A DNA stretch of 64,000 nucleotides from Bremerella sp. P1 (GTDB taxonomy: Bacteria > Planctomycetota > Planctomycetia > Pirellulales > Pirellulaceae): NCBI RefSeq assembly GCF_028748185.1, contig NZ_CP118164.1, positions 310,001-374,000 on the forward strand, read 5' to 3'. The notes beneath the pieces are model-generated. The model was not told where the DNA came from. It saw only the letters and a list, made by a program, of their open reading frames with translations, and did not search any database. Positions 42,751-46,391 of the stretch are shown in pieces (position 1 is the stretch's first letter; every line of letters starts with the position of its first letter). A program made the position numbers and the translations under genes.

Positions 42751-44424
42751 TTAGCGCTGCAACTTCTTGTACTTGAATCGATGGGGCTCGTCAGCGCTGA
42801 CTCCCAATCGTTCTTTCCGCTGACGTTCGTAGGTATCGAAGTTTCCTTCGCACCAGTGGACGTAGCCATCGCCTTCGAAGGCCAGGATATGCGTTGCAAT
42901 TCGATCCAAGAACCAGCGATCGTGGCTCGTGACGACCACGCAGCCCGCATAGTTCAAAATGGCTTCTTCCAAAGCACGCAGCGTGTCGACGTCCAAGTCG
43001 TTCGTCGGTTCGTCCAACAGCAGGACGTTCGAGCCGCGTCGCAGAAGCGTCGCCAGGTGCACGCGGTTGCGTTCACCACCAGAAAGCACGCCGACCTTCT
43101 TTTCCTGGTCCGGGCCTTTGAAATTGAAGCGGGAGACGTATGCCCGGGCGTTGATCTTACGTTTACCAAGCTCGATCGTATCGTGACCGCCGCTGATCTC
43201 CTGGAAGACGGTCTTCTCCGCGTCGAGCGCGTCACGCGACTGATCGACGTAGCCGAGCTCAACCGTATCACCGATGACGATTTCGCCCGAGTCAGGCGTA
43301 TCTTGGCCGGTCAGCATACGGAACAGCGTGGTCTTACCGGCACCGTTGGGACCGATGATGCCGACGATCCCGCCCGGCGGCAGGCGGAAGTTGAGGTCTT
43401 CGACCAGCAGCCGATCGCCGAAGCCTTTGTTGACGTTCTTCACGTCGATGACCTGATCGCCCAGACGCTTGCCCGAGGGGATCTGGATTTCAAATTCGTC
43501 CGGCTGATCTTCGTACTGCTCGGCGACCAACTTCTCGTAGGCGTTGATACGGGCCTTACCCTTGGACTGCTTTGCCTTGGCGGAAGAGCGGATCCACTCC
43601 AGTTCCTTCTCCAAGGTCTTCTGGCGGGCTTCGCTTTGCTTCTCTTCGACGGCCAGACGCTTTTGCTTCTGTTCCAGCCACGAAGAGTAATTGCCTTCGA
43701 ATGGAATGCCCTTGCCGCGGTCGAGTTCCAGAATCCAGCCGGCTACGTTGTCCAGGAAGTAACGATCGTGGGTCACGGCGACGATCGTGCCGGGGTACGC
43801 GGCCAGGTGATGCTCGAGCCACAGAATCGATTCGGCGTCCAAGTGGTTCGTTGGTTCGTCCAGCAGCAGCAGGTCAGGCTTGCGAAGCAGTAACTGGCAC
43901 AAAGCCACACGGCGGCGTTCACCACCAGACAGGTTCGTGACGCCAGACTCGGGATCCGGCAGGTTCATCGCGTTCATCGCGATTTCGATTTCGCGATCGA
44001 GCTCCCAGCTGTTGGTCGCTTCGATCTTATCCTGCAAAACGCCCATCTCTTCGTAGAGGGCGTTCATCTCGTCTTCCGGCAAATCTTCGCCTAATTTGCC
44101 GGTAATTTCGTTGAATCGCGTGAGCAAGCCACGTCGTTCGGCGACGGCTTCCTCGACGTTCTCCAGGACATTCTTACTCTCGTCGAGCTGCGGTTCTTGC
44201 GGAAGATAGCCTACCGTAAACCCATCGCTAAGACGGGCTTCTCCGTCAAATTCTTTGTCGATGCCGGCCATGATCTTCAACAGAGTTGATTTTCCGGCAC
44301 CATTTCGGCCAAGAACTCCAATTTTTGCGCCTGGATAGAATGCTAGCCAGACTTCCTTTAATATCTCGCGCGGACCAATCTTCTTGGTCAACTGCTCCAT
44401 CTGGAAGATGTATTTCTTGCTCAT
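42751..44424 (-). CDS. ettA: ABC-F protein, energy-dependent translational throttle EttA
   Basis: This gene encodes 557 residues from the ATG at 44424; a TTG four codons earlier is less likely. Two ATPase domains each show Walker A ([18 protein letters not shown]), signature ([22 protein letters not shown]) and Walker B ([22 protein letters not shown]). The start [14 protein letters not shown], the length and the arm and linker segments match EttA, which binds the ribosomal E site and gates the first peptide bond by ATP/ADP ratio. No membrane segment. It is monocistronic. Confidence 0.95.
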
Positions 44425-44571: not shown

Positions 44572-44599
44572 TTGCAAGCTAACGATTCTCTGGTACTAT
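44572..44599 (+). promoter_or_regulatory. Sigma-70 promoter of the intergenic small RNA
   Basis: TTGCAA (44572-44577) and TACTAT (44594-44599) are 16 bases apart, with TG one base before the -10 box. Transcription would start near 44606, at the foot of the first hairpin. No plus-strand gene follows. Confidence 0.6.
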
Positions 44600-44603
44600 C
44601 CGA

Positions 44604-44767
44604 AGTGTTGGAAGCACACTCCAACGCTCACTAATCTCATATCTTGTCGGTACGAGCTAAGTTCAGTTTCGAGGAATTCCATCCCCTATCCTCGCCCCGC
44701 CAAAAACTGAATTTGTTTCGCACCAACCCGATCAACAGCGTGGCTAGTCCCCCTAGCCACGCTTTTT
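44604..44767 (+). ncRNA. Candidate structured small RNA between guaA and ettA
   Basis: About 160 bases, no coding frame with a ribosome site, framed by an extended -10 promoter and an intrinsic terminator on the plus strand, while both flanking genes are on the minus strand. Three hairpins are visible. The first has nine pairs (44604-44612 with 44620-44628, one G-U). The second has eight pairs TTCAGTTT/AAACTGAA (44662-44669 with 44704-44711), extended outward by three more, then an inner six pairs CGAGGA/TCCTCG (44670-44675 with 44689-44694) with a C-rich nine-base bulge and a 13-base loop ATTCCATCCCCTA. The third is the terminator. It lacks features I associate with 4.5S RNA, 6S RNA or tmRNA. 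The C-rich loops could pair with ribosome binding sites of target mRNAs; that is inference. Confidence 0.6.
44738..44767 (+). terminator. Rho-independent terminator of the small RNA candidate
   Basis: A perfect ten-pair stem, GCGTGGCTAG with CTAGCCACGC, has a five-base loop and five T on the plus strand only. On the minus strand no T run follows, so it is not the guaA terminator. Confidence 0.8.
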
Positions 44768-44807
44768 CGTTTCTTGTCTTTCGTGTCTCAGCTCCGACCA
44801 GGAATGC

Positions 44808-46391
44808 TTATTCCCACTCGATCGTTGCTGGGGGCTTCGTGCTGATGTCGTAGCACACGCGATTCACCCCTTTGACCTCGTTGATGATTCGCGTCGAGAT
44901 CCTTGCTAGCACCTCATAGGGGAGGTCGCTCCAGGTCGCGGTCATGAAGTCGTCCGTATCCACGCAGCGGACGCATACGGCGTTGTCGTAGGTCCGGGCA
45001 TCGCCCATCACGCCCACGCTTTGCACCGGCAGCAGCACCGCAAAGCACTGCGAGGTCGACCGGTACAGGTTCGCCGACTTGATCTCGTTCACTACAATCG
45101 CGTCTGCTTCACGCAGAACGGCCAATTTTTCCTCGTTCACCTCGCCCAGGCAACGCACGGCCAGGCCAGGACCCGGGAAAGGATGCCGCCAGACGATGTC
45201 TTCCGGCAGGCCCAGTTCGATACCCAGCTTGCGAACTTCGTCCTTGAACAAGTCACGCAGTGGCTCGACTAGATCGAAGCCCAGTTCCTTGGGCAGCCCG
45301 CCCACGTTGTGGTGCAGCTTGATCACCGCGGCCGGGCCGTCCTGAGCCGCGCCACTCTCGATCACGTCGGGATAAAGCGTCCCTTGAGCGAGGAACTTGG
45401 CGTCCTTGATCTTGGTCGCTTCTTCCTTGAAACACTCGATGAATTCGTAGCCGATAATCTTCCGTTTTTCCTGCGGATCGGTCACGCCGGCCAGCTTCGT
45501 CAGGAAGCGTTCCTTCGCATTCACGACGTGCAGGTCGGTCTTGAAATGCGAGGAAAACTCGGAAATAACGGCACCTTCTTCGTCTTTCCGCAAAAGGCCG
45601 TTGTCTACCAAAATACAGGACAGTTGATCGCCGATTGCTCGGTAGAGCAGGGCGGCTACCACCGACGAGTCGACCCCGCCAGACAAGCCGCAAATGACGC
45701 GAGCATCGCCCACTTCTTCGCGAATCCGGGCAATCGTTTCGCGGGCGAAGTCACCCAGCTTCCAGGTCCCTTCGCAGCCACAGATGGTGATGACGAAGTT
45801 TCGCAGGATCTGGCTGCCCAGCGGCGTGTGGGTGACTTCCGGGTGGAACTGGATGCCGTATTGGGCGTGCTCGACGTGACGCATCGCGGCCACGGGGCAC
45901 GTGCGGGTCGAAGCCAACGGGCGGAACAGGCCGCTGATCTGCTCGACCTGGTCACCGTGGCTCATCCACACGTCGGTTTCGTCGGGCAGGCCGGCCAGCA
46001 GGTCTTTGGCGTCGTTGATTTTGATGTGGGCGTGGCCATATTCGCGGGCCGAGGCGTTTCGCACCTTGCCGCCAAACCGATCGCACATCAGCTGCATGCC
46101 GTAGCAGATGCCCAGGATCGGAATGTCGAGGTCAAAGATGCCTGGGTCGCACTTCGGAGCGTCTGGCTCGTACACGCTGGAAGGCCCGCCTGAGAGGATG
46201 ATTCCCTTGGGAGCCAACTCTTTGATCCGCTCGGCGGTAATATCGTGCCGCACGATTTCGCAGTAGACGTGCTGTTCCCGCACGCGGCGAGCAATCAACT
46301 GGGCATACTGCGACCCGAAGTCGAGAACGAGCACGCGTTCCGAGTAGATGTCGTTGGCCGGCGAGGAACTGACGGAGGCGGTATCAGGCAT
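44808..46391 (-). CDS. guaA: GMP synthase (glutamine-hydrolysing)
   Basis: This gene encodes 527 residues and aminates XMP to GMP. The glutaminase domain has GICYGMQ (catalytic Cys96) and HPEV (His184, Glu186). The synthetase domain starts with the PP-loop [10 protein letters not shown] (236-245). The C-terminal dimerisation region ends KPPATIEWE, as in all bacterial enzymes. A short N-terminal extension of about 16 residues precedes [14 protein letters not shown]. The gene is monocistronic and not linked to guaB. A hairpin lies in its short leader. Confidence 0.97.

Follow-up and report, generated by a model that had tools for sequence, protein, structure and literature searches.

A covarying C-rich RNA encoded near ettA and guaA in Bremerella sp. 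P1 and related genera is a candidate trans-acting small RNA

The interval between ettA and guaA in Bremerella sp. P1 very probably encodes a real regulatory RNA, which combines covarying stems with a nearly invariant C-rich core and recurs in roughly one-third of the genera sampled from its family, presumably the Pirellulaceae. The reading preferred here, which is given a probability of about one half, is that of an independent small-RNA gene whose product would act in trans, pairing through its C-rich stretches without Hfq. The window (the whole stretch of DNA analysed, 64,000 nucleotides, 56% G+C) contains the following features. The neighbouring genes are those that we take to be ettA and guaA, names that follow the original prediction.

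42751..44421/44436, minus strand: ettA (ABC-F translational throttle), transcribed away from the RNA gene
44572..44599, plus strand: promoter-like site, with −35 element TTGCAA (44572-44577), a 16-base spacer ending TGG and −10 element TACTAT (44594-44599)
44604..44768, plus strand: predicted small RNA transcription unit, 165 nt, with a fold z score of −8.65 and conservation in genus and family
44604..44628, plus strand: 5′ hairpin, AGTGTTGGA/TCCAACGCT, nine pairs (predicted fold and family alignment)
44641..44732, plus strand: second hairpin, outer and middle stems (predicted fold, genus alignment and family alignment)
44670..44702, plus strand: core, comprising CGAGGA, a C-rich loop, TCCTCG and then unpaired CCCCGCCA; family consensus CGAGC-loop-GCUCG-CCCCGCC
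44737..44768, plus strand: intrinsic terminator of 11 pairs with a C-rich loop and T run (terminator scan and family alignment)
44808..46391, minus strand: guaA (GMP synthase), convergent with the RNA gene

As originally predicted, the RNA gene lies on the plus strand, opposite to both neighbours; it overlaps neither coding sequence and stops 39 bp short of the guaA stop codon. The promoter named in the original prediction (TTGCAA, 16 bases, TACTAT) is present, matching the consensus at 8 of 12 positions, and a simple scan with a threshold of 9 of 12 reports no promoter. Support for so weak a consensus match comes from its conservation within the genus, where the site is retained in all eight aligned members and the −10 element reads TAC[GTC]AT in congeners. 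Comparable elements were recognized by eye in genera g19 and g21 (TTGTAA-16-TATCAT and TTGGCA-16-TATCAT). Similar inspection of distant genera could fix no −35/−10 pair, the promoter being recognizable in g1, g19 and g21 only, and revealed instead a recurrent upstream GAAAAT...CGAT pattern in the more distant genera.

The nine-pair first hairpin was confirmed at 44604-44628. The second stem, described beforehand as having eight plus six pairs, is indeed in two parts with a C-rich bulge and loop, but its pairs had been undercounted: the minimum-energy fold contains a continuous 12-pair stem and a 6-pair inner stem (CGAGGA/TCCTCG), together with a 13-nt loop, a 9-nt C-rich bulge and 12 more outer pairs in short runs. 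The terminator is likewise present with its T run, although the stem-loop (44737-44763, loop of 5) has 11 pairs, one more than claimed. The sole listed frame of at least 60 amino acids that overlaps the unit (69 amino acids, plus strand, TTG start, 44644-44853) is disrupted in relatives by indels of 1-2 bases. Such indels in the genus alignment speak against a protein-coding role, in line with the earlier claim that no coding frame is present. Judged by sequence alone, the unit has its own promoter, an intrinsic terminator and no reading frame, as is looked for in a trans-acting small RNA.

The predicted fold energy of the unit was −57.9 kcal/mol compared with −28.9 ± 3.4 kcal/mol for 200 dinucleotide shuffles. 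This comparison, which had been proposed together with the original prediction, favoured a structured RNA even when the terminator was removed (z = −5.93). Five of five relatives folded singly formed the central hairpin with the core at z scores between −2.77 and −5.37, with L207 truncated by 15 nt at the 3′ end and L212 by 21 nt at the 5′ end; 2 of 200 shuffles reached the value of L207, and 1 of 200 that of L061. In L202 folded alone, the 5′ hairpin did not form as modelled.

To establish the distribution of the RNA, covariance models were used. The source genome has a single copy, and the RNA was found in 8 of 9 genus genomes, the one without it being 68% complete. When a model built from the eight genus sequences alone (R1) was applied, unanchored, to 241 whole genomes of the family, orthologues emerged in two further genera, in both of which the RNA is flanked by the guaA 3′ end and the ettA 5′ end. 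Close relatives of ettA occur in 211 of the 241 genomes (E ≤ 1e-180), and up to 1.2 kb of upstream DNA from 80 of these was searched with R1. R2 was then built from the better R1 matches and R3 from the R2 matches. Applied to the 241 genomes regardless of place, R2 gave matches of at least 42 bits in 35 genomes, representing 21 genera. With the addition of g6 (61.7 bits with R3, at ettA), g36 (35.2 bits, at ettA) and g9 (51.5 bits with R3, ∼6.7 kb from ettA), and with weak or coreless matches left out, the RNA was counted in 24 of 68 sampled genera. A looser R2 tally at E ≤ 0.05 comprises 51 of 241 genomes and 34 of 68 genera. Among the loci found is that of Blastopirellula marina DSM 3645 (L122), in which the RNA lies immediately upstream of ettA and scores 94.7 bits with R3. 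The stems are thus conserved in relatives and recur near ettA and guaA, where the original prediction had proposed to look for them.

Several assignments required individual judgement. L061 was doubted for its strand and stood outside the R2 training set, but was later kept, its own fold and core being sound. L087 (G049, 23.9 bits) contains the core motif and is a probable family member, but was left out of the count, as were L128 (14.6 bits), L138 (11.0 bits) and L140 (13.7 bits with R2, 18.9 with R3). A match in G268 (L041, 39 bits with R1) lacks the middle of the model, adjoins neither gene and was dropped.

Searches of the order (396 genomes) and class (297 genomes) returned no match above 40 bits outside the family, the best scores being 30.2 and 38.5 bits, respectively, although strict filters with few candidates scored per genome mean that lack of a match is no proof of absence. 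Five of these outside matches were inspected (L229 and L231-L234), and each lacked the core or was not in a non-coding setting; some of the remaining ones span 140-170 nt. Most of L224-L233 consist of a terminator and a small hairpin with the core absent, and L234 is core-like but inside long open frames; none was counted. In the class search, several genomes of family f22 gave one to five weak matches, mostly of 73-145 nt and scoring up to 38.5 bits, which might represent a common type of terminator, a hairpin with terminator or a different small RNA.

Covariation was assessed at two depths. In the genus alignment of eight sequences, 4 of 40 pairs have changed on both sides, and in the family alignment of 35 members 37 of 40 have done so. 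In the latter, 91.0% of cells are paired, as against 62.0% in shuffled alignments. Its covariation score of 0.719 compares with 0.209 for shuffled alignments and no more than 0.098 after displacement by 1 to 3 columns; these figures are favoured by the fitting of the alignment to the model structure. Every modelled pair showed two-sided changes in the 5′ hairpin (helix 1; 6 of 6 pairs, 90.2% of cells paired), in the second hairpin (helices 2-4; 17 of 17, with 75.5% of cells paired in the outermost modelled helix) and in the terminator (helix 6; 11 of 11, 96.9% of cells paired). The letters of the 5′ hairpin differ between genera, and its six modelled pairs are mostly retained. A sequence-only MAFFT alignment of 22 members recovered the core hairpin and terminator but not the 5′ hairpin or outer stems, which are supported by the model-fitted alignment, the genus alignment and the single folds.

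The pattern at the core is the reverse of that in the stems around it. When one sequence from each of 22 genera was compared, CGAGC-loop-GCUCG-CCCCGCC was nearly invariant. CGAG, CUCG, the next CCC and the GC that follows are identical in 19 to 22 of the 22 genera, with both stem arms keeping their CGAG and CUCG letters in 20 to 22. In the terminator loop, three C's agree in 19 to 21 genera, and the most conserved positions overall are the core and the C's of the loops. Taken together, letter conservation and covariation indicate that stem positions outside the core mostly vary and covary, whereas the C-rich core and the loop C's are fixed.

The position of the RNA relative to ettA and guaA is similarly recurrent. 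Of the 35 genomes with a match of 42 bits or more in the unanchored R2 search, 34 have the RNA no farther than ∼1 kb from guaA and/or ettA; the other, G099, has neither gene inside 1.5 kb. The tendency also holds for matches outside the R2 training alignment (G098, G137, G129, G131, G024, G099, G042, G130, G059, G141, G048, G135 and G134), of which 12 of 13 are at guaA and/or ettA. The RNA is present in 19 of the 80 ettA-upstream regions. Where the guaA 3′ end was visible (48 regions), none of the 27 with a gap below 303 bp carries the RNA compared with 15 of the 21 with a larger gap; it is present in 4 of the 32 regions in which the guaA 3′ end was not visible. In G141 (L061:184-331), the RNA cassette points the other way with respect to guaA and ettA and retains an intact core and terminator, and in G016 (L290:1624-1767) and G099 (L218:1501-1638), family members lie away from both genes, either several kb off or elsewhere. 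The inversion and these other placements imply an autonomous RNA gene and no cis element; by strand and by location in these three genomes, the RNA is not tied to the transcript of one neighbour.

Two further loci differ in composition. In g6 (L223 and L292), the neighbour of the RNA matches the N-terminal part of guaA only (residues 2-156 or 2-132, 62-63% identity) and is perhaps a separate amidotransferase. In G100 (L225:1501-1596), a shorter unit beside guaA has a 5′ hairpin and a terminator with a UUCCCC loop but no core, and is possibly a reduced form of the RNA.

Inspection of Rfam revealed nothing at gathering score in the window, nothing beyond chance in the region at E ≤ 10 and nothing in 16 relatives at E ≤ 0.5; weak matches to mir-548 (E = 1.6) and, on the other strand, to leuA-Halobacteria (E = 0.34) were attributed to chance. 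The 6S model RF00013, which detects 6 of 14 controls, has no match at this place and none in the whole genome at E ≤ 1. The model for SRP (4.5S) RNA, RF00169, matches above its cut-off at G000:C1:6743522 and not at the RNA locus, and ARAGORN found neither tmRNA nor tRNA in the window, tmRNA being absent by Rfam also. The description of a structured small RNA unlike 4.5S RNA, 6S RNA and tmRNA is therefore supported, given covarying stems in about two dozen genera, no match to an Rfam family and an SRP RNA encoded elsewhere. At that SRP locus, two SRP-like matches stand in tandem on one strand, 42 nt apart (G000:C1:6743522-6743617, 46 bits, above the cut-off, and 6743660-6743745, 33.2 bits, below it). 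The Hfq model PF17209, which gives matches in 5 of 14 control genomes, found nothing in this genome.

The preferred reading can be expressed as the following minimal scheme. Transcription would begin at a sigma-70-like promoter and stop at the gene's own terminator, giving an RNA of ∼165 nt. Rigid stems would keep C-rich stretches single-stranded, namely the core hairpin loop and bulge, the 3′ linker and the terminator loop, and the RNA would then most likely act in trans, independently of Hfq, on G-rich segments of certain mRNAs. The near-invariant GCUCG-CCCCGCC would be the main seed, partly sheltered in the hairpin until a target opens it. Transcription, action in trans and base pairing are all steps that we infer.

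Potential pairing partners were sought among 637 crude genes from 864 kb (∼12% of the genome). AAGGA, AGGAG and GGAG are strongly enriched at −18 to −3, which is the start-site signal of this genome. GGGG, by contrast, is not clearly enriched, occurring 22 times at −18 to −3, 17 times at −60 to −45 and 23 times at +60 to +75; small rises were seen for GGGGA (9, 3 and 6) and GGCGGG (5, 1 and 1) in the same intervals. Mean duplex energies of the five unpaired segments were no better in start regions than in gene interiors. Strong duplexes (−14 kcal/mol or better), counted in start regions versus the upstream and two interior windows, were slightly more frequent at starts for the first linker (10 versus 5, 1 and 6) and apical loop (17 versus 8, 12 and 9), but fewer or equal for the bulge (29 versus 44, 62 and 51) and 3′ linker (16 versus 16, 24 and 30); the terminator loop gave 9 versus 6, 8 and 9. 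The best single duplexes reached −23 to −19 kcal/mol, and some of the frames concerned look doubtful. Outside the RNA genes, the nine genus genomes contain six exact complements of the 12-nt core, at places with no cross-similarity to one another, and six matches to the reversed control. Given a window of 56% G+C, a CCCC seed is not very selective. The earlier suggestion that the C-rich loops pair with purine-rich ribosome sites is thus unsupported as a general rule. Pairing with individual mRNA targets remains compatible with these data.

The main rival, which must be regarded as tentative, is a protein-binding RNA in which the CGAGC hairpin and CCCCGCC bulge form a recognition site and the RNA titrates or scaffolds the protein, as CsrB/C or 6S RNA do in other bacteria. 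It takes this rank because the letters of the core stem are as fixed as those of the bulge, so that a protein site rather than a pairing seed is possible; the core arms are fixed in 20 to 22 of 22 genera while most other stem positions vary, and general enrichment of complements at start sites is absent. Against this, the arms could also be fixed because they have to pair around a fixed seed, and the C's of the apical and terminator loops, which lie outside the core, are kept as well, which fits pairing better. In a broader proposal, the RNA would be a lineage-wide, Hfq-independent global regulator of Pirellulaceae, its core a platform for an RNA-binding protein or the translation machinery, and its retention by ettA and guaA a reflection of shared growth-rate control, EttA throttling translation at low energy and GuaA supplying GTP. 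This is considered doubtful.

The remaining alternatives carry less weight. The proximity of 34 of 35 strong matches to ettA and/or guaA would suit a cis-acting element of either gene (a leader, riboswitch, antisense or 3′ regulator), but this is distinctly unlikely for a unit that lies opposite to both genes without overlap, ends before the guaA stop codon, is inverted in G141 and stands apart from both genes in G099 and G016; GU also exceeds AC among the pair cells (92 versus 39), although the alignment had been fitted to this strand. A diverged housekeeping RNA (6S, SRP or tmRNA) would fill the 6S-like role for which RF00013 finds no candidate elsewhere in the genome. It is nonetheless very improbable in view of the Rfam, SRP and tmRNA/tRNA results and of the separate hairpins of the fold, the hallmark of 6S RNA being a single long closed hairpin with a central bubble. 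That the locus holds only a terminator plus chance hairpins is scarcely credible: the models do match a terminator and hairpin without core at other places, but the z score of −5.93 without the terminator, the core in 22 genera and the covariation of the middle stem contradict it.

The PVC group has few annotated small RNAs: for Planctomycetes, Verrucomicrobia and Chlamydiae together, a 2022 review lists 8 distinct ones (PMC9029176). A covarying RNA in 24 of 68 sampled genera, in a genome in which no Hfq was found, offers a handle on possible mRNA regulation in these bacteria. The family appears to be new, although of a familiar kind, the bacterial intergenic small RNA; searches of open-licence papers turned up no such RNA. 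The Rhodopirellula-1 motif of Weinberg et al. (2010) is likewise a candidate RNA with Planctomycetes, as well as Proteobacteria, among its taxa, and is listed in PMC2864571 as an ambiguous RNA, probably cis-regulatory, without an Rfam accession. By that description it would differ from the RNA studied here. Neither R2 nor R3 matched the ettA loci of Rhodopirellula solitaria (L139) and Aporhodopirellula aestuarii (L135).

Were the Pirellulaceae RNA to titrate a protein, CsrB/CsrC and 6S RNA would be its models; unlike CsrB/CsrC, its predicted fold has no run of GGA loops and, unlike 6S RNA, no single long hairpin with a central bubble, and it matches neither in Rfam. For a pairing RNA, the closest parallels have C-rich loops. 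According to a 2019 NAR paper, 6C RNA reportedly binds several mRNAs through its C-rich loops with no need of chaperones. PMC9569102 describes 6C RNA of Actinobacteria as a stable structure with C-rich loops that is widespread in its lineage. The Pirellulaceae RNA shares C-rich loops on stable stems but belongs to another phylum, has no Rfam match in the window, region or 16 relatives, and has as its fixed element the CGAGC hairpin plus CCCCGCC bulge. IsrR is grouped with FsrA and the RsaE/RoxS class as similar RNAs. In PMC9410917, IsrR of staphylococci is described with stem-loops, Rho-independent termination and three C-rich regions that are conserved and single-stranded, read as a sign of trans-action, in AT-rich genomes where G runs occur mainly in Shine-Dalgarno sequences. 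The Pirellulaceae RNA likewise has stem-loops, a terminator and C-rich single-stranded regions, but its window is 56% G+C with no enrichment of G runs at start sites, and there is no Rfam match. By analogy, then, the Pirellulaceae RNA resembles 6C RNA and IsrR in its probable mode rather than in membership.
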